NCBI GenBank assembly: GCA_002689995.1
Contig: NZIV01000011.1
Location: forward strand, 33,025-97,024
Direction of reading: 5' to 3'
DNA from: Fidelibacterota bacterium
GTDB lineage: Bacteria; Fidelibacterota; Marinisomatia; SCGC-AAA003-L08; GCA-2689995
DNA: 64,000 bases
Part shown: positions 4,856-42,970 of the stretch, piece after piece
How positions within the stretch are numbered: the first letter of the stretch is position 1
Layout: the number at the start of each line of letters is the position of its first letter
The notes under the pieces: model-generated
What the model saw: the letters and a program-made list of their open reading frames with translations, nothing else
What the model was told of the DNA's origin: nothing
The model's database searches: none
Made by a program: the position numbers and the translations under genes

Positions 4856-6259
4856 ATGAGAATACTATTTATACCAATTTTAATCTTTATTGGCTGTAGT
4901 TATGTACTAGAAAATGATACCTTGCAAATAGAGGATGTAAATGGTGATGGTAAAGACGATAGAGATATTGAATTTTTACAAGTATTAATTGAAAATTCGC
5001 AGGGCTTTAATAACGCTCCCCCAGATACTTTAAATGTCTTAGAGTTAGGAGAACAGATTTGGGTTGAGGGAAGATTGAGATCATTGAAGCATACTGGAGG
5101 TTTATTCTACCTTTACGGACAAATTCCAGAAGAAATAGAGAATGTTGAATATTTAAACAAGCTTCATTTAGAGGATAATCGTTTCACTTCAATTCATGAA
5201 GGTATAGGGAAACTGCAAAATTTATCTGAAATAATTTTAAATGATAATCGCTTTAGTGGGATAGTACCAGAAGAATTATGGCAAAATAAATCTAATTTAA
5301 AAAATCTATCTATTTTTAATAATTATTTTAATCAATTACCAGAATCGATTTGCGAATCATATGATTCTATGGAAAACTTTATATTTTCTCATAATAATAT
5401 ATGTGAAATGCCTTCTTGTATAAAAGATGCGGGTATACAGTCTTGTGATTGTTTTGATTATATTACAATGGATATATGTATTAATCCTGGTGATGATTTA
5501 TCATGTGAAAATAATATTGGTCAAATTATTGATAATTGCCCTTTAAAGCAGTTTTGGGGAGAAAGCCTTTTTGAAGAATTATCAGATTTAAATTCTAGTT
5601 ATTGTGTAGATTGGGTTGGTACATGTAATGATTCTATTAATATCGGGACAGAATCAATAAATTTTGATTTAAACTTAGATCAGGGTTGCTTTGACTGTAA
5701 TGGTAATCCATGCGATGAAACACTTTCATGGATTGGTGATGGTATTTGTGATGAGATTGAAACTTTTACCGATATGGATAGCAACGGATTATGGGATGAC
5801 GGAGAACCATTTATAGACTTGAATGGTAACGGAATATGGGATTTTAGTACAAATAATAGTTTCTCATGTGAAGAGTTTAATTGTGATATGGAAGACTGCG
5901 GATTTTATTTAGAATCTGAAAATTCATGTTATTGTCAAAGGGATTGTTCTGGGAAATGTATTAATCAAGATGATTGTGCGGGATATTATTATTACTATGA
6001 CTGTTGTATAGATGATGGCACCTGTCAAGACGTAATATCTGATGGTGAAATTATTGATTGGGTGGGTGATGGTTGGTGTGATGATGGCACATGGGGTTAT
6101 GCATTTAATTGTCAAGAGTCAGGCGGCTTTGAGTTTAACTGTGATGATGGAGATTGTGGATTTTGGAATCCAGAAACAGGACAATGTGAACCTGCTCCTG
6201 GGCAGATTATAAAATATTATGATGATTATAAAATTAATAAATATATTGAAAAGGACTAA
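4856..6259 (+). CDS. Leucine-rich-repeat, Cys-rich surface lipoprotein
   Basis: This 467-residue protein begins with a lipoprotein signal peptide ending in IFIGC (Cys14). Residues about 90-190 are leucine-rich repeats (YLNKLHLEDNRF, NLSEIILNDNRFSG, NLKNLSIFNNYF). The remainder is rich in Cys, Asp and Gly and contains WIGDGICDE and WVGDGWCDDGTWGYAFNC, ending in NCDDGDCG; these resemble the calcium-binding LNR (Notch-like) pattern. A stretch around residues 300-325 carries two DxNGxWD calcium-binding-type repeats also found in the neighbouring TonB receptors. The gene ends 7 bases before the likely start of the UGA-containing TonB receptor, so it is probably that receptor's surface partner. The ligand is unknown. 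Confidence 0.72.
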   Translation: MRILFIPILIFIGCSYVLENDTLQIEDVNGDGKDDRDIEFLQVLIENSQGFNNAPPDTLNVLELGEQIWVEGRLRSLKHTGGLFYLYGQIPEEIENVEYLNKLHLEDNRFTSIHEGIGKLQNLSEIILNDNRFSGIVPEELWQNKSNLKNLSIFNNYFNQLPESICESYDSMENFIFSHNNICEMPSCIKDAGIQSCDCFDYITMDICINPGDDLSCENNIGQIIDNCPLKQFWGESLFEELSDLNSSYCVDWVGTCNDSINIGTESINFDLNLDQGCFDCNGNPCDETLSWIGDGICDEIETFTDMDSNGLWDDGEPFIDLNGNGIWDFSTNNSFSCEEFNCDMEDCGFYLESENSCYCQRDCSGKCINQDDCAGYYYYYDCCIDDGTCQDVISDGEIIDWVGDGWCDDGTWGYAFNCQESGGFEFNCDDGDCGFWNPETGQCEPAPGQIIKYYDDYKINKYIEKD

Positions 6260-6266
6260 AACAACC

Positions 6267-9200
6267 ATGAAATATAAATTCATTTATGTTTTTTTACTTA
6301 CATTAACACATTTATTTAGCGGTTCAATAAATGGATATATTGTTGATCAAAACGATGAACCTTTGATAGCTGTAAACATATCTGTTTTAAATACTAATTA
6401 TGGAAATACAACAGATGAAGAAGGTTATTTCAATATAAGTGGATTACCTCCAGGGAAATATACTTTATTTATTAGTTATATTGGATTTTATGAGAAATCA
6501 ATTGATTTTTATATTTCGGAAAGAGAAATTCAGGGAGATAAATCGTCCGCTTATTATAATCAGAAACTTGGGCTTTCATTTAATGATGATACTATAGAAA
6601 CTCTTAAGGGTGTTAATATAGATGGCTTATATATTACTTTAATGCCGCAATTATTAGACTATGATGCCGTTGTTGTATCAGCTTCAAAAAAACAGGAAAA
6701 AGTATTTGATGCTCCTGCTACGATTTCATTAGTTAGCCAAAGAAAAATACGTCAATTTTCAGGTGTAGACATTGGATCAGCATTAAGTAAGGTTAAGGGT
6801 ATGGATGTTTATCATGCAGGAAATGGAAGAACAAATATTAATACCCGTGGATTTATGGCCGTATTTAATGGTCGCTTTGTCACATTGATGGATGGGAAAA
6901 AGTTTGCAGATCCTATATTTAGGACGACATTCAATAACACCTTTCCAACAATTATGGAAGATATTGAAAGATTGGAGGTGGTTTTTGGACCTAGTTCTGC
7001 TCTATATGGACCAAATGCGCATAATGGATTAATAAATATTATAACGAAACATCCAAAAGATTCACCTGGAATGGATTTTACTTTGACTTCAAGTGCTACA
7101 AATCATAATTCTCAACGCTTTAGATATGCAAAAGCAGGTGAAAAATTAAGTTATAAAATAAATTTGGAAAATAGTATCTATACTGAATGGGATCCAAACC
7201 GAGTTTATGCACCCCGAGATTATAATGGAGATGGTCTTTATTCTTTAGAAGGTGAACAATTTATCGATTCAGATGATGATGGTATGATTTCTACTGAGGA
7301 TTATTATGATGCAAATCATGATGGAGTATATTCTCCAGAATACGATATAGAAAAAGATTGTTTTTTATTTGGTTGTGATATTGATGGTTTAACAGGTATT
7401 CCTATAGATGTATTAGATGAAAATGGAATTGAATATGATCCTCTTAATATAATAGAATTTGAATCCGGTGATGAAGTCATAGATAATGGTATTTACGATT
7501 TCTGGGATTCATTTACTGATTTGGATAGCAACGGAACATGGGATAATGGTGAACCATTTACAGATTCAGGTAATCAAGAATTTGACTATAAAGAAGAATT
7601 TTATGATTGTGGATATAATTTATTAGGTGAATTAAAATGTGAAGGTGATGAGGGATGGGATCCAAGCTTTGGAGATGGTATGCATACTGGTCCTGAGGGT
7701 GTGGAATTATTTAAAACAGATTTTGAAAAAGATTTGTATACTCGAAAACTTTTGGCAGCTATATATTATCAAATTGATGAAAATGCAGAGATAACATTTG
7801 AGCCCACATTAATTCAGCAAAAAAATTATATTCCATATGATTTAGGTTATTTATTTACTACAAACACATATTCATCTTTTTCAACAAAATTAAACATGAA
7901 GAATTTAAATGCTTCCATGAATGCTGATTTCTTAGATGGCGAAGTAATTACAGGCGAGGAATTGTATAATGCGGCATTAAAATTATTTAATGGAGATGTA
8001 CAGAAATCCTATAATTTCTTAAAAGAAAATAGAGATAAAACTTATAAAACAACATCATATTATGGAAATTTATCTGGAAATTTTAATAATAAATTTTTAA
8101 ATTCAATCACATATGGGCTTGATTTTCGTTATGATGCACCAAAAACAAATAGAAATATATTAAGAGATAAGGGCTCTAATCAAAAATATGCTTTTGATGG
8201 ATCACCATTACCTGAAAAAATAATTGGTGAAGATATTAAAGTATTTCAATATGGTGCATTTACTCAATTTAGTTATTCACCAATTAATCGATTTGATTTA
8301 ATTTTAGCGAATAGAATAGATTATCATTCTCATTATGATCAGTTTTATTTTAGCCCAAGGGTTGCCTTAAAATATTCAGGATTTAATTCATCAAATATTC
8401 GTTTAACCTATAATCGAGCACATCAGGTACCATCATTATTTCATTTATTTGGAAATATTTATAACCAAAATACCATAACCTTTTCTGAGGATTTAAATGG
8501 ATCCGTTAATGCTTTTAATTCCCCAGATAACGTTGATGTTTATGGTAATCCAATAGAATCCCCTTTATTAGTTGAACAGCCATACGTACCACTTTTTTCT
8601 GGGAATGGTGAAGGTTTTACTGTAGATGATTCAATTATGATTGATCCAATTCAAGTAGAGGTTGTTGATTCTTATGAGTTTGGTATTAAGGGTATGCCGT
8701 TTAGAAATTTATTTTTAGATTTTAATGCATATTATTCAAAATTTCATAACATGACAAGTACAACTCAATATATCCAGACAATATGGCCTCATGGACAAGT
8801 ACCATTTCAAATGAATCAATTAACACATGTTGGAGATCAAGAGCTTGATGGTAGAGATATATTGTTTACCTATGTAAATTTAGGCGAAGTTGAATATTTT
8901 GGCATGGATGTGTCGTTAGAATATCAGATAGATTATAGAACATCATTTTTTTCAACTTATTCCTATTATAATACTATGGAGATAATAAGTAGAGCAAACG
9001 AGACACCGTATGTTGGAAATGATTGGGCGTGGACTGAACTTATTCAAGATAGTAAAGATGTTTCTCCATATGATATTATGCATTTTAATGCACCAAATGA
9101 AAAAATATCATTTGGTATATCAAGAGATGATTTTTTATTAAGTGAATTATATTTTGAATTTTCTGGTAAATATAATTCAAAATTTGATTTTGAATCAGGT

Positions 9201-9464
9201 GGTTGGAATTATTCAGAAGATGACCAAAATGAGAGTTATTTATATTCAGGTTGTGGCTGACCTGGACTTGCGAATAAGTTTTATTCGAATCAAGGGGCTC
9301 TAGGAGGAAATATTATATTTGACATTAAATTAAATTATTTAATTAATAATAATGTATCATTGAAATTTTCGATTAATAATTTAACAGATAAAGATGATGT
9401 AAGACTTGTTGGCTCGCCAGTATCAAGAAGATCAACTTTATTTGAAATAAATTATCATTTATAA
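6267..9464 (+). CDS. TonB-dependent receptor, predicted selenoprotein (UGA at 9258)
   Basis: This is an outer-membrane active transporter of 1,065 residues if the UGA at 9258-9260 is read as selenocysteine (residue 998). The ATG at 6267 gives a signal peptide (MKYKFIYVFLLTLTHLFSGS), then a carboxypeptidase-regulatory-like domain (residues 20-120), a plug domain (about 138-270), an Asp/Gly-rich insert with calcium-binding-type repeats (about 313-475) and a beta-barrel. Before the UGA the frame reads SGCG; after it, 67 further residues supply the last barrel strands, including the family pattern NNLTDKDDVRLVGSP and the C-terminal strand LFEINYHL. Without readthrough the barrel would lack about three strands. 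A strong hairpin follows the UGA (separate entry). The Cys996-Gly-Sec998 motif falls in a predicted extracellular loop. The substrate is unknown. A plain nonsense mutation is the main alternative. Confidence 0.82.
9258..9294 (+). promoter_or_regulatory. Candidate SECIS element in TonB receptor
   Basis: After the UGA at 9258-9260 there is a hairpin with seven consecutive pairs (9271-9277 with 9281-9287) and a three-base apical loop GTT at 9278-9280, extended below a three-base bulge by four more pairs (9267-9270 with 9291-9294). The loop starts with G and lies 17 nt after the UGA. Bacterial SECIS elements require a stem-loop at about this distance with a G in the first loop positions. There is no following T-run, which argues against a terminator. 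Confidence 0.72.
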
Positions 9465-9519: not shown

Positions 9520-12414
9520 ATGGCTATAAAATTTATTATATCTTTATTTTTTATAATATCATTATCTTTCTCTTCACAATATACAAATATTCAAAATTTT
9601 AAATTTATTGACGGATTATCAAGTAATAACGTTACTGACATAACTATTGATGAAAAAAACAGAATTTGGTTAGGTACTTACAATGGAATTTCTATGTTTA
9701 ATGGAAATTCATTCCAAAACTTTTATAATGATGAGATAATTACTGAAAAATCAATTAATTGTACCGAATCAAATGAACTTGGTGTATGGTTTGGCACCAA
9801 TAATGCCCTCTTAAAAATGTATGAGAGTGATGCCGGTATTAAAGTTCAAAAGTATTTAGAATTTCCAAATGGAATAATGAGTATTGCTTTAATTGGTAGT
9901 AGAGTTTATGCCTTATCAAAAAACAAATTATTTAGTATAAATACATTAAACAAACAATATAAGGAAATAAATTTTGGAAATATTAAAAAAGTAATTCCAT
10001 ATGAAAAAAAATTAATAGTCACAACAAATTCAATGATTTATTTATACGATATTAAAACAGGAGATAAAAAAATCTTAAAAAAATTCGATTCTGATATTAA
10101 TTTAATTGATTTGAAAGATTCTGAATTGTTCGTTGGTACTAATAGTGGTCTTTATAAATATAAAATTAAAAACTCAAATCTAAGTTTGGACAGACATCTT
10201 TTTAAAAATAAAAATATTAATGCAATCGGACTAACTGAAAATCAAGTATTTGTTTCTGTTGAAAACAAATTATTTAGTTTGAATGAGAGTTTAACAAAAA
10301 ATAAAAATATAAGCATTGAAAATATTAGAAGTATTCAGGCGACGCAAGAAAATATTTTATTTATAGGTTCTTTTGGCGAGGGGTTATATAAAATTGATCC
10401 AAATAGCTTTAAAAATTATTCAGTACTTGAAGGAAAAAATAATGTAAGAGTAAATAGCTCTTTGGAATTTAAAAATGATATTTTTCTTGCAACTGAAAAA
10501 GGATTTTATTCTCAAAAACAAGATGAATTTTTATTTAAAGGAAACATATTTGATATAGAGATTGAAAAAGATAATATAATTTGGCTTGCAACTCAAAAAG
10601 GAATTTATACTTATGCTAATAATAAAATAAAAAAAATAAAATTAGAAGGTATTGAGTCTAATATTATTGTGTTATCAATAATGATTGATAAAATGGGTAT
10701 TAAATGGTTTGGTACTACTAAAGGGCTTATTAAATATGATGATAGAAAACAAAATAAATTTATCTATCTATATAATACAGCAGATGGATTAATTTCAAAT
10801 GTAATATATGATATTTGTCAAATTCCAGGTGGAATTGCCGCAACCAGTTCTAATGGGATTACTTATTTTAAAAATTATAAAAATATAATACCTCTAGAGT
10901 ACACATCTGATGAGTATAACTCCTGTGTTTATGACTATGATAGCGGTTTATTATGGGCATCAACAACACAGTCTGGTATAAAAAAAATTGATATAGAAAC
11001 TGGCGAAATTATTGAATCTTATTCTACCTCTAATGGATTAAATAATAATGAAATATTTAATTTAATAATTGATGATAATTCAACATTATATGTATCGACT
11101 GATGGAGGAGGTGTTTCAATTTATAATGGAGAGGTCTGGAGTAGTTTAGATTCACGAGATGGATTAGTAAATAATACAGTATATCATGTTTATATAGCTA
11201 GAAATGGGGATTCTGTAGTTTCTACGAAATCAGGATATTCCATATATAGTCCTAAAACTACAAATTCTAATATAAAAATAAATCAAATAATTGGAGCTAC
11301 AAAAAATAGGAACTCCTTTTCTGTTCAGGAGGGAAATAAAGTATTTATCAATTTATCGCCTGTAGATTATATAACTAATCCTCAAAAATATATTTTTAGA
11401 TATAATTTAGGAAATGAATGGCAATACAGTTTCGGAAATACTAATATTGAAATAAATGCATATAAAAGTGGGACATACAATATTAATGTGGAATTCATAG
11501 ATAGAGATTTAAATGTTAGTGAATCAGAAAAAGTAAAACTTGTTGTGCTTAAACCTTGGTATCTCAGAACAAATATAGCAGTTCCACTATATGGCGGAAC
11601 CTTAATTCTACTTATCACAACAATTTTCTCATTATTACAATTTTTCAAAAAACGTAAAGAAAGTGAAGCCCTGAAGGAGGCAGATTTAAAGCGACAGTAT
11701 GAAGAAATGGAAGAAGCTAGGAAATTCCAAATGGGTATGTTGCCAGATAAAACTCCTGCGGTGTTAAATTTAGATATAGCTACTCATATCAATACTGCCG
11801 ATGAAGTTGGAGGCGATTATTATGATTTCTTTATCCAAAAAAAATCAAATTCTTTAATTGTTGCAATTGGCGACGCAACGGGACATGGTATGATTGCCGG
11901 AAATATTGTTTCTATTACCAAAGCTGGATTAAATAGTGTAAACTTTGAATCTCCAATTAATGAAATCTTGGAAAACTTAAATAAAATAATAAAAAAAGTT
12001 GGTATTGGTCGAAATAGAATGTGTTTGAATATTTGTCATGTTACAGATAGTAGTTTTGAAATTTGTTCTGCAGGAATGCCACCAACTTATCTATTTAAGA
12101 GAGAGTCTAATACAATTGAAGAAGTAATGATTAGTGGACTACCTGCAGGTTCATTAAAGAATAGTAAATATTCAAGTGAAAAGTTTGATTTTAATAAAAA
12201 TGACATTTTAGTTATGATTACTGATGGTCTTCCAGAATGTGAAAATTCTAATGGTGAATATATTGGTTATGAGAGAATTAAGGAAACAATCCTTAATAAT
12301 TCAGATAAATCTGCAGGTGAAATTAAAAGTAATTTAGCTAATTTAGGGAAAAATTGGATGGCTGGAAGTCCAATTACCGACGATATTACATTTGTTGTAA
12401 TTAAGAAATGTTAA
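9520..12414 (+). CDS. Two-component-propeller sensor with SpoIIE/RsbU phosphatase domain
   Basis: This 964-residue membrane sensor has a signal peptide, then repeated propeller blades of the type IWLGTYNGISMFNG over about residues 20-590, a Y_Y_Y-type beta domain (about 600-680), one membrane helix around residues 690-710, a short coiled coil and a C-terminal PP2C/SpoIIE serine phosphatase. Metal-binding motifs are GGDYYDFF, GDATGHGM, ITDGLPE and DDITFVVIK. In partner-switching systems such a phosphatase dephosphorylates a STAS anti-antagonist in response to a signal, and here the propeller would sense something in the periplasm. The three following genes supply kinase, STAS protein and a cyclase. 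It starts 55 bases after the receptor gene ends. Confidence 0.9.
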   Translation: MAIKFIISLFFIISLSFSSQYTNIQNFKFIDGLSSNNVTDITIDEKNRIWLGTYNGISMFNGNSFQNFYNDEIITEKSINCTESNELGVWFGTNNALLKMYESDAGIKVQKYLEFPNGIMSIALIGSRVYALSKNKLFSINTLNKQYKEINFGNIKKVIPYEKKLIVTTNSMIYLYDIKTGDKKILKKFDSDINLIDLKDSELFVGTNSGLYKYKIKNSNLSLDRHLFKNKNINAIGLTENQVFVSVENKLFSLNESLTKNKNISIENIRSIQATQENILFIGSFGEGLYKIDPNSFKNYSVLEGKNNVRVNSSLEFKNDIFLATEKGFYSQKQDEFLFKGNIFDIEIEKDNIIWLATQKGIYTYANNKIKKIKLEGIESNIIVLSIMIDKMGIKWFGTTKGLIKYDDRKQNKFIYLYNTADGLISNVIYDICQIPGGIAATSSNGITYFKNYKNIIPLEYTSDEYNSCVYDYDSGLLWASTTQSGIKKIDIETGEIIESYSTSNGLNNNEIFNLIIDDNSTLYVSTDGGGVSIYNGEVWSSLDSRDGLVNNTVYHVYIARNGDSVVSTKSGYSIYSPKTTNSNIKINQIIGATKNRNSFSVQEGNKVFINLSPVDYITNPQKYIFRYNLGNEWQYSFGNTNIEINAYKSGTYNINVEFIDRDLNVSESEKVKLVVLKPWYLRTNIAVPLYGGTLILLITTIFSLLQFFKKRKESEALKEADLKRQYEEMEEARKFQMGMLPDKTPAVLNLDIATHINTADEVGGDYYDFFIQKKSNSLIVAIGDATGHGMIAGNIVSITKAGLNSVNFESPINEILENLNKIIKKVGIGRNRMCLNICHVTDSSFEICSAGMPPTYLFKRESNTIEEVMISGLPAGSLKNSKYSSEKFDFNKNDILVMITDGLPECENSNGEYIGYERIKETILNNSDKSAGEIKSNLANLGKNWMAGSPITDDITFVVIKKC

Positions 12415-12471: not shown

Positions 12472-12894
12472 ATGAAAATTCGAGATTTTACAGAAGTTGA
12501 TTTAAAAATACCAATGCTTCCTGATATGGAAATTGCTGCTACCAAAACTGCAGAAGCAATGGCAGAATATTTATCATTTGATCAGGAAAAAACAGATGAA
12601 ATTAAACTGGCACTAATTGAGGCAACTTTAAATGCATTTGAGCATAGTAAGTCATCTGAAAGATTCGTAGAAATTAAATTTGAAGCAAGTAATGATGAGC
12701 TTACCATTAAAATTCATGATAGAGGCAAGGGATTTGATGAAAATAAGGTTGAGAATCCTGATATTAATAAAAAAATTAAAGCTGATTACAAGAGAGGCTG
12801 GGGAATGTCTCTCATGGAGCAATTAATGGACTCTGTTGAAGTAATTAATGACAAAGATGGTTGTACAATCATTTTAACAAAGGGGAGAGAATAA
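12472..12894 (+). CDS. RsbW-type anti-sigma/serine kinase (HATPase_c_2)
   Basis: This 140-residue protein is a stand-alone GHKL ATPase of the RsbW/SpoIIAB kind. The N-box is EATLNAFEHSKS, followed by DRGKGFD (G1) and KRGWGMSLMEQLMDSVE (G2). Such kinases phosphorylate a STAS antagonist and in many bacteria bind a sigma factor. The STAS partner is the next gene, which starts immediately after this gene's stop. No sigma factor gene is present in the window, so the output target is unknown. Confidence 0.92.
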   Translation: MKIRDFTEVDLKIPMLPDMEIAATKTAEAMAEYLSFDQEKTDEIKLALIEATLNAFEHSKSSERFVEIKFEASNDELTIKIHDRGKGFDENKVENPDINKKIKADYKRGWGMSLMEQLMDSVEVINDKDGCTIILTKGRE

Positions 12895-13236
12895 ATGAGC
12901 TCAGATAGTATTACAGGTGAATTAAAAGATAATGTATTTGTTGTTAAATGTTCGGGATATCTAAATATGGAGTCAGGAGATAGTATTGCTAAATTATGTT
13001 ACGAACAAATTGACAATGGTATAACAAAGTTTTTAATAAATTTAGAAAATACAAAAATGGTAAATAGTATTGGTGTCTCTATATTAATTGAAATTATAGA
13101 GAAATTACAGGATATAGATGGTCAACTAGGATTCTGTAATTTAGCTGCTATTGTCGAAAAAACTTTTAAAATTATGGGACTTACTCAATATTCAACATTA
13201 TTTGGAACCGAATCTGAAGGCGTTGATTCTCTTTAA
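12895..13236 (+). CDS. STAS-domain anti-sigma-factor antagonist
   Basis: This 113-residue single-domain protein of the SpoIIAA/RsbV family has the conserved phosphorylation-site region NTKMVNSIGVSIL, with Ser58 as the likely target of the upstream kinase and the substrate of the upstream SpoIIE-type phosphatase. It begins directly after the kinase gene's stop codon, implying coupled translation and stoichiometric expression. Phosphorylation state would control whether it sequesters the kinase or an alternative partner. Confidence 0.92.
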   Translation: MSSDSITGELKDNVFVVKCSGYLNMESGDSIAKLCYEQIDNGITKFLINLENTKMVNSIGVSILIEIIEKLQDIDGQLGFCNLAAIVEKTFKIMGLTQYSTLFGTESEGVDSL

Positions 13237-27697: not shown

Positions 27698-28751
27698 TTT
27701 TTCAAATAGGATAGCATCTTTAAAACTTATTTTTGGATTAATTAAAACTAATAATTATGTTCCAAATTCAAATAATGTTATACAAAAATACTATACTGAT
27801 TTAAAAAAGAAACAAATTCCATATTTAGAAGTATATCCCAATAAAAACATAAGAAGATTTGAAGTAATTTTATTTCATGGTGCGTCTCCATATGGAGAAG
27901 AACATCCTGCTATGATAAATCTTGCTTTAGCTTTGGCAAAAAGTGGAATAAAAGTTTATATACCACAACTACCAAAATTAACTGAATTAGAGATTAGTAA
28001 CCATACTATTAATTTAATTTCTCATTTTTATTCACTTATTGTAAAAGAAAACTATAAAAAAAATATAGTTCCAGCGGGTATTAGTTTTGGCGGGGGGCTA
28101 CTGATTAAAGCATTAACAAAAACTATGGTCAAAAACTTTTTACCAAAATCAATTTTAACATATGGAACATATTTTAGTTTAGCTTCAAGTATAGAATTTT
28201 TACTTTCTGGAAGAATTATTAGTAATGGTAATGAAGAGTTTATAAAACCAAATGATTGGGGCTTGATTGTATTATTTCATAATTTTCTTTCAGGTATAGA
28301 TGCCGGTTTTGACACAAGTCAAATGGAGAAAGTTCTTAGATTAAGAGTGAAAAATAAAATAGTAGAATCAAATAATGAATTAAGGAGACTTCCAGAGGAC
28401 CAAAAAAAAATTATGTTTGATATTTTAAATTCAAATCAAACTGAAATTATAAAAAAGTTAACAGAAAAAATGAAAACTGTATATCAAGAAGAGCTTGAAG
28501 ATATTTCACCTTCAAATGTTTGTAATGAAATTAATTATAAGGTATTTTTAATGCATGGAGCAAACGATTCTATGGTTCCTTATACAGAATCAATAAAGCT
28601 CAGTAAAAAAATAAAAAAATCTCAATTATTTTTATCAGGACTATACGAACATAGAGAAATATCAAAAAGTAATTCTCTTATTAAAAAAATATGTGAACTG
28701 AAACATATGTCCAATTTTTTTACTGATTTTATGGATTATAATGAAAGTTAA
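27693..28751 (+). CDS. Alpha/beta-hydrolase-like protein, start codon unresolved
   Basis: The frame encodes an alpha/beta hydrolase-like protein: an oxyanion-type VILFHGASPYGEEHP strand-loop, a nucleophile elbow PAGISFGGGLL, and a late VFLMHGANDSMVPYTES region supplying Asp, with YEHRE possibly supplying His. The first ATG (27912) would delete the first strand and the HGASPYG motif. The frame is open back to 27675 but contains no ATG, GTG or TTG upstream; an ATT at 27693 would overlap the previous stop as ATTAG, and an ATA at 27675 or 27690 is also possible. With ATT the protein is about 352 residues. The substrate is unknown. Confidence 0.7.
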   Translation: MSFSNRIASLKLIFGLIKTNNYVPNSNNVIQKYYTDLKKKQIPYLEVYPNKNIRRFEVILFHGASPYGEEHPAMINLALALAKSGIKVYIPQLPKLTELEISNHTINLISHFYSLIVKENYKKNIVPAGISFGGGLLIKALTKTMVKNFLPKSILTYGTYFSLASSIEFLLSGRIISNGNEEFIKPNDWGLIVLFHNFLSGIDAGFDTSQMEKVLRLRVKNKIVESNNELRRLPEDQKKIMFDILNSNQTEIIKKLTEKMKTVYQEELEDISPSNVCNEINYKVFLMHGANDSMVPYTESIKLSKKIKKSQLFLSGLYEHREISKSNSLIKKICELKHMSNFFTDFMDYNES

Positions 28752-29388
28752 ACCATTTCAAGGCGGATATGATAAAAATTTTAGCTATGTTCTTTGGTGT
28801 CAGGAGTCATTAAGAGCAGCAGTTATAGATCCATCCGTTGAACCTTTAAAGATATTTGAATTTATTGAAGAAAACAATCTAGTTTTAGAAAAAATATTAA
28901 TCACACATACTCACTATGATCATATTGCATATTTAGATGATTTTATATTTAAATTTCCTAATATTAGAGTTTTTGGTTATAAAATGCCCGTAAAAAAATT
29001 GAATAGTAATTATATTAAATTATCTAATAATCAGATTTTTAACATAGGAAACAACATAATTACTGCAATTTTTACTCCAGGTCATTATCCAGATTGTATG
29101 TGTTATTGGAATTTAGACGAAGGGTTTATATTTAGTTGAGATACTGTTTTTGTAGGTCGTACTGGTAGAACAATAAGTTCAGCGAGTAAAATTGAAGATT
29201 TATATCATTCAATATATAAAAAATTTTTGAAATTACCAACTTCTACAGTTATTTATCCAGGCCATAATTATGGATTTTCAAAGACATGTACAATAAAGGA
29301 GAATATTAAGTATTCTCCTTTTTTTCAATGTAAAAATTTTGCAGAATTTAAATTAGTTATGGAAAATTATGAACGAAGCAGAAAATGA
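28741..29388 (+). CDS. Metallo-beta-lactamase-fold hydrolase, predicted selenoprotein (UGA at 29137)
   Basis: This is a 215-residue glyoxalase II-like hydrolase if the UGA at 29137-29139 is decoded as selenocysteine (residue 133). Metal ligands are present on both sides of the UGA: THTHYDH (His56, His58, Asp60, His61), TPGHYPD (His115), then Asp134 directly after the UGA and YPGHNYG (His175). The post-UGA sequence DTVFVGRTGRT matches the family motif GDTLFVGxxGRT, so the UGA replaces the usual Gly before the metal-bridging Asp. A SECIS-like hairpin follows. Without readthrough, two metal ligands would be lost. It overlaps the hydrolase gene by 11 bases and the next gene by 20. The substrate is unknown (thioester or persulfide are family options). 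Confidence 0.87.
29137..29172 (+). promoter_or_regulatory. Candidate SECIS element in MBL-fold hydrolase
   Basis: Downstream of the UGA a bipartite hairpin forms: six pairs (29145-29150 with 29167-29172), an internal bulge, three pairs GTA/TAC (29152-29154 with 29160-29162) and an apical loop GGTCG at 29155-29159, 15 nt after the UGA. The GGUC in the loop is the same as the SelB-contacting loop of the E. coli fdhF SECIS, which sits at a similar distance from its UGA. Confidence 0.78.
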
Positions 29389-41908: not shown

Positions 41909-42970
41909 ATGTTTAATACTTCAAAAAAACGAAATCCGAAAAAATTAACATCATTTAGTAGCGGTGCAGGTTGAGCCTGTAAATTAAGTCCGGAGGATTT
42001 AGAAAATGTATTATCTAGTATAAATGAACAAAAAATATCAACTGGATTACTAGGTTATGCTACTAACGATGATTGTGCAGTTTACCCATTAGAAAGTGGG
42101 CAAAAAATTATTCAATCGGTTGATTTTTTTACTCCAATCGTTGATGATCCATTTGAATTTGGAAGAATTGCCGCAGCTAATTCATTATCAGATATTTATG
42201 CTATGGGAGGAAAACCTTTATTTGCATTAAATATAGCATGTTTTCCTTCAGATGATTTACCATTAGAAATTTTAACAGAAATATTAAATGGTGGTCTTGA
42301 TTGTGCAAAAGAAGCTGGGATTCCAATTTTAGGAGGACATACTGTTAGAGATGCTGAACCTAAGTATGGATTAGTTGTGACAGGAATAATTGAAGAAGAA
42401 AAAGAAATAAAAAATAGTCAAGCTCAGGCTGGAGATGTTTTAGTTCTTACTAAACCATTAGGAACAGGAATAATTTCTACAGCAATTAAACAGGGCAAAG
42501 CTCCTGAAAATATGATAAATGATGCCATTAATAATATGTCTACATTGAATTTAAGTTCAGCAAAATCAATGAAAGGACTTCCAATATCTGCATGTACAGA
42601 TATTACAGGCTTTGGATTACTTGGACATTTATTTGAAATATGTAAAAATAGTAATGTCTCTGCCGTGATTGAATTTAATAAAGTTCCTTTTTTGGAAGGT
42701 GTTTTTGAACTAGCACAAAATGGTGTTATACCAGGTGGAACAAAAAAAAATTTAAAATTTGTAGAAAGTTATATTGATTTTGATGATGTTTTATTGGGTT
42801 ATCAAAGGTTAATGCTTGCAGATGCTCAAACTTCTGGAGGACTGTTAATTTCTATCCCTTCTGAAAATTCAAAAAAATTAATTCAAAATTTAAAAGAAAA
42901 TAAAACTTTATCTTATGAAGTTATTGGACAAATATATAAAAAAGCTGAAAAATCAATATATGTACAATGA
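41909..42970 (+). CDS. selD: Selenophosphate synthetase, itself a selenoprotein (UGA at 41972)
   Basis: This 353-residue enzyme makes selenophosphate from selenide and ATP, the selenium donor for selenocysteine. The frame from the ATG at 41909 runs through a UGA at 41972-41974 (Sec22) in the motif GAG-Sec-ACK, which aligns with the catalytic Cys/Sec and Lys of SelD (GCGCK in E. coli). Then come YATNDDCAVYP, DFFTPIVDDPFEFGRIAAAN, GGHTVRDAEPKYGLVV and TDITGFGLLGH, all family signatures. A SECIS-like hairpin follows the UGA. Many bacterial SelD proteins are selenoproteins, so this is strong evidence that the genome decodes UGA as Sec. apaG overlaps its stop. Confidence 0.95.
41972..42002 (+). 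promoter_or_regulatory. Candidate SECIS element in selD
   Basis: Eight pairs (41984-41991 with 41995-42002, including two G-U pairs) enclose the apical loop GGA at 41992-41994, which starts 17 nt after the UGA. Loop position and leading G match the other two candidate SECIS elements in this window. Confidence 0.75.

Follow-up and report, generated by a model that had tools for sequence, protein, structure and literature searches.

Does the UGA near the 3' end of a TonB-dependent receptor gene from this Fidelibacterota genome end the protein, or does it encode selenocysteine (Sec)? The gene lies in a stretch of 64,000 nucleotides (the window), and an earlier note on this DNA had described a receptor at 6267-9464 in which a single UGA at 9258 is followed by 67 further codons for the final strands of the barrel. 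Analysis of the reading frame bears this out: the open reading frame 6267-9260 closes at the TGA, and the same frame reopens for 67 codons, up to a TAA at 9462-9464. The read-through protein contains a carboxypeptidase regulatory-like domain (PF13715), a plug domain (PF07715, 1.3e-16) and a barrel domain (PF00593, 1e-16), the last two each scoring over the curated cut-off, which identifies it as a TonB-dependent receptor. The barrel match extends to residue 1039, beyond the UGA, and the best matches in both sequence and structure are Cir and BtuB. In an AlphaFold2 model built from 17 sequences (pTM 0.63), the barrel has 22 strands, of which strands 20-22 are encoded by the 67 codons after the UGA. 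As set out below, the receptor gene is very probably a selenoprotein gene in which UGA 9258 is decoded as Sec, because Sec is paired with Cys among its homologues, the downstream hairpin has the geometry of a bacterial SECIS (17-nt spacing, loop beginning with G), and the genome encodes SelA, tRNA-Sec and a SelD that itself contains Sec. The features discussed are collected in Table 1.

Table 1. Features of the window, numbered from its first letter, with the evidence or remarks for each.
Feature	Position	Strand	Evidence or remarks
Putative surface lipoprotein, 467 aa, 31 Cys	4856..6259	+	Lipobox FIGC; leucine-rich repeats (LRR_8, Pfam); Cys-rich LNR-like C-terminal half
TonB-dependent receptor	6267..9464	+	1065 residues with UGA read as Sec; domains, full-length homologues, model like Cir/BtuB/FepA
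Large acidic DxDG-rich extracellular loop 2 (predicted), residues approx. 304-488	7176..7731	+	Lies between predicted strands 3 and 4; low confidence in the model
Cys996-Gly-Sec998 (TGT GGC TGA), predicted extracellular loop 10	9252..9260	+	L069 TGA and L070 TGT in the same column; strand order in model
In-frame UGA, read as selenocysteine	9258..9260	+	Homologue alignment
Bacterial SECIS-like stem-loop, CUUG-CGAAUAA-GUU-UUAUUCG-(AAU)-CAAG	9267..9294	+	Folding, model fit, shuffles, codon conservation
Reg_prop/SpoIIE-type sensor phosphatase	9520..12414	+	Pfam
HATPase	12472-12894	+	Pfam; downstream of Reg_prop/SpoIIE sensor
STAS protein	12895-13236	+	Pfam; after HATPase
selD, itself a predicted selenoprotein gene	41909..42970	+	UGA 41972-41974, GAG-U-ACK; TIGR00476 374.8 bits, 1 TGA inside

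When 84,980 species genomes were scanned for homologues, two loci came up, L069 and L070, both in Candidatus Marinimicrobia bacterium UBA2986; another search, across the phylum, found these two again and added none. The receptor clade has three known members, two of which are paralogues from one genome. L069 has a single in-frame TGA, at the exact column of the UGA in the source receptor, while L070 has TGT (Cys) there. The context of the site is GCG-U-PGLANKFYSNQG in the source receptor, GCG-U-PGFANKFYSNQG in L069 and GCG-C-EGFANLFYETQP in L070. The 67 codons after the UGA have 64-72% identity to the orthologues from U+15 onward and retain conserved motifs. The earlier note had proposed alignment of Sec with Cys in relatives as a test of its idea; the UGA in L069 and the TGT in L070 supply just this, with the downstream stem kept in the first and lost in the second. 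More distant receptors (30-35% identity) have no residue aligning with the Sec, because the loop that carries it is an insertion, and they therefore speak neither for nor against Sec. As L069 shares 85% identity with L070 ahead of the UGA, and each of the two about 60% with the source receptor, the simplest history suggested by the alignment is that Sec is ancestral, that the gene was duplicated in the UBA2986 lineage, and that one copy then exchanged Sec for Cys while its hairpin decayed.

The earlier note had described an 11-pair stem directly after the UGA. The stem is real, although it actually comprises seven pairs (9271-9277 with 9281-9287) and four more below a 3-nt bulge; the three-base loop beginning with G (GTT, 9278-9280) and the distance of 17 nt from the UGA are as the note had them. 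The bacterial SECIS (bSECIS) model allows a loop of 3-9 nt, an upper stem of 4-16 bp, a G in the first two loop positions, a spacing of 16-37 nt and a minimum free energy of -7.5 kcal/mol or lower (PMC13188914). Both UGA copies fit this model with 7 bp, a GUU loop and a 17-nt spacing, at -8.8 kcal/mol in the source receptor and -10.4 in L069. L070, the Cys copy, has no such hairpin, its stem having been destroyed. The arms and loop are identical letter for letter between the source receptor and L069, and the longest run of identical codons in their whole alignment, eight codons from U+4 to U+11, coincides with the hairpin. Likewise, the most similar 12-codon windows start at the UGA or up to three codons before it, with 91.7% nucleotide identity vs a mean of 65%. 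When synonymous codons were shuffled so that protein and codon use of the gene stayed the same, a stem of this length and with as low an energy arose at the bSECIS position in 0.31% of shuffles for the source receptor and 0.085% for L069. For the eight identical codons, a product taken residue by residue comes to 0.011, giving support that on its own falls short of overwhelming. Taken alone, the fold energy of the hairpin is unremarkable (z -0.74), and the case therefore rests on conservation. An Rfam scan around the UGA gave no match to a SECIS family, and the stem has no compensatory base changes.

The source genome contains tRNA-Sec (selC, 65.3 bits), selA (501 bits) and selD. The earlier note was right that SelD is encoded: its gene lies within the window, itself specifies a Sec protein and is a useful internal control. 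The selD hairpin also has a spacing of 17 nt and a three-base loop (GGA), and is weaker when taken alone (-5.0). The earlier note had further tied Sec decoding to the presence of SelB and selC. The latter is present; selB is also present, directly after selA on contig G000:C63 (L067, 22870-24725), but with one frame change between 23274 and 23289, at an AAAA run. Because the two halves jointly span nearly all of the SelB profile and the second half stays open for 485 codons, the frame change is probably a single-base assembly error; if it is real, Sec could not be inserted in the source genome. UBA2986 has selA, an adjoining intact selB and tRNA-Sec, and selD was not detected in that genome, which is 77% complete. 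The source genome is a draft assembly of 87 contigs with 7.3% estimated contamination. A different TonB receptor occurs in it twice, as apparently identical copies on separate contigs (G000:C6:45540-48326 and G000:C31:1844-4630), which suggests strain redundancy in an assembly with this level of contamination.

In the cell, UGA 9258 would be decoded by SelA, SelB, tRNA-Sec and SelD through the SECIS hairpin just downstream, with the selD product supplying selenophosphate. If translation ended at the UGA, the protein would lack strands 20-22 together with the C-terminal signal required for barrel assembly, so a complete receptor is expected only where selenium is available.

It is hardly credible that the UGA is instead a plain stop, arising from a nonsense mutation or an assembly error in a gene that is decaying or mis-sequenced. 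This assembly does contain some nonsense changes or single-base faults: its selB is frameshifted, and an MBL-fold hydrolase gene has a TGA in frame at a position where readable relatives have Gly. However, L069, which belongs to an independent genome and is about 60% identical as a protein, shares the receptor's UGA, and the paralogue L070 has Cys in its place. This Sec/Cys pair in effect refutes a simple stop or decay, and the continued conservation of the 67 downstream codons likewise argues against it. Selenium-free read-through, in which Trp or another residue is inserted and two lengths of receptor result, is very improbable. In both UGA copies the next base is C, and UGA-C is a leaky context. 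Against this, Sec is indicated by the Cys codon of the paralogue, by the restriction of the bSECIS-type hairpin to the UGA copies and by the Sec machinery of both genomes, and a barrel without its final three strands is not expected to assemble.

The TGA in the glyoxalase II-like MBL-fold hydrolase gene of the window (28741-29385, + strand) was considered as a second Sec codon and rejected. It lies at 29137 (IFS-stop-DTVFVGRTGRT) and 82 further codons stay open beyond it; the corresponding residue is Gly in all 13 readable relatives, and its surroundings do not fit the bSECIS model. It is probably a nonsense change or an assembly error rather than Sec.

The Cys-Gly-Sec motif (CGU, residues 996-998) lies in a low-confidence loop of the model between strands 19 and 20. 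The earlier note had put it in an extracellular loop between the last strands; the strand order of the model agrees with an extracellular position and makes the loop the next-to-last rather than the last. Loop 2 holds four further cysteines (Cys365, Cys370, Cys448 and Cys458), and by the usual topology both loops would be extracellular. Excluding the signal sequence, the mature receptor has just six Cys/Sec residues, in three pairs; all six are invariant across the clade's three members, and none occurs in the 14 other aligned relatives. Two related receptors, in genomes G062 and G091, have no cysteines at all, the G091 sequence being incomplete (830 residues) as its contig ends before the loop. 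Searches of solved structures and folds matched generic receptors only (Cir, BtuB, FepA and OprC), and thus no ligand follows from them. Like Cir, BtuB and FepA, the source receptor has a plug and a 22-strand barrel. Unlike them, it has a regulatory-like N-terminal domain, a 180-residue DxDG loop with two Cys pairs, and the Cys-Gly-Sec of loop 10 with its predicted selenium-dependent completion.

The stop codon of the lipoprotein gene lies 7 nt ahead of the receptor's ATG. Orthologues of the lipoprotein (42-43% identity over the whole length) are encoded directly upstream of both UBA2986 receptors, 28 Cys columns are common to all three proteins, and among 245 genomes of the phylum full-length relatives were found in just the source genome and UBA2986. 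The Cys-rich lipoprotein is likely a partner of the receptor. SusC/SusD and BtuB/BtuG are known pairs of a receptor and a surface lipoprotein. The source locus resembles them in having the lipoprotein gene ahead of the receptor gene in one apparent operon, but its lipoprotein, with LRR and LNR-like regions and the 28 shared Cys, is unrelated to SusD or BtuG in a Pfam scan. Downstream of the receptor, the Reg_prop/SpoIIE, HATPase and STAS proteins form a probable partner-switching regulator. Proteins of SpoIIE and STAS size, assigned by size and N-terminal sequence, also adjoin related Cys-free receptors from another family, in three other genomes (G062, G186 and G091; L135, L136 and L137), hinting that partner-switching control of the receptor is conserved. 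We infer that the Cys/Sec pairs and the Cys-rich lipoprotein came together onto an older, regulated receptor.

What the thiol-selenol pair does is a more tentative matter. Our preference, held with less than even confidence, is that the pair and the Cys-rich lipoprotein may form a binding site at the mouth of the receptor for a soft metal or for a sulfur or selenium ligand. Somewhat doubtful, but to be taken seriously, is the alternative that CGU serves as a redox device and not as a ligand site, either exchanging, as a selenenylsulfide, with the Cys-rich lipoprotein or reducing an extracellular oxidant. CxU and UxC selenoproteins elsewhere belong to thioredoxin-like and oxidoreductase families (PMC13188914), and the gene immediately upstream encodes a disulfide-rich lipoprotein in all three clade members; however, there is no obvious source of electrons for the cell surface, and the host protein is a transporter without an enzyme fold. 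It is conceivable, though unlikely, that the locus is a selenium-gated uptake system: alongside the Cys-rich surface lipoprotein, the receptor would bind its ligand, a soft metal or a chalcogen and perhaps a selenium compound, directly through the CGU loop, it would be made only when selenium suffices, and the Cys paralogue in the relative would be a selenium-independent stand-in. According to a review, prokaryotes have no identified high-affinity transport system specific for selenium.

The earlier note knew of no described Sec-containing TonB receptor, which is out of date. In 2025, deep-Sep predicted a TonB-dependent receptor with Sec in Desulfosarcina sp. BuS5 (PMC12013277), and a 2026 review catalogues it as NCBIfam NF049945, of the FCYXU motif-type, CxxU (PMC13188914). 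Like the source receptor, the NF049945 receptor is TonB-dependent and has a predicted Sec, homologues with Cys, and a hairpin resembling a SECIS; its motif is F-C-Y-x-U (CxxU), whereas that of the source receptor is G-C-G-U-P (CGU). Against the NF049945 profile the source receptor scores 34.1 bits vs a cut-off of 825, over residues 188-299 only, in the generic plug region. No members of NF049945 were found in 245 genomes of the phylum, in a search that gave no positive-control signal. Judged by motif and profile score, the source receptor lies outside NF049945 and is apparently a separate variant of this recently predicted kind. A full-text literature search found no example of a Sec TonB receptor from Marinimicrobia. 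Among barrels of other kinds, MtrB is of the cytochrome-conduit type and is not TonB-dependent. The GSU2204-type MtrB/PioB entry (NF041027) is also an outer-membrane beta-barrel protein for which Sec is predicted, and differs in that no CxU motif is given for it (PMC13188914).

If the Sec reading is true, TonB-dependent receptors would have a second case of Sec, apparently separate from the first, along with a genome whose paralogues carry Sec and Cys, and completion of a receptor made dependent on selenium. Sec is usually catalytic and lies inside the cell or in the periplasm; in this receptor its predicted site is next to a Cys on the transporter's outer face. Standard gene callers stop the receptor at 9260, and its last three strands are thereby lost.
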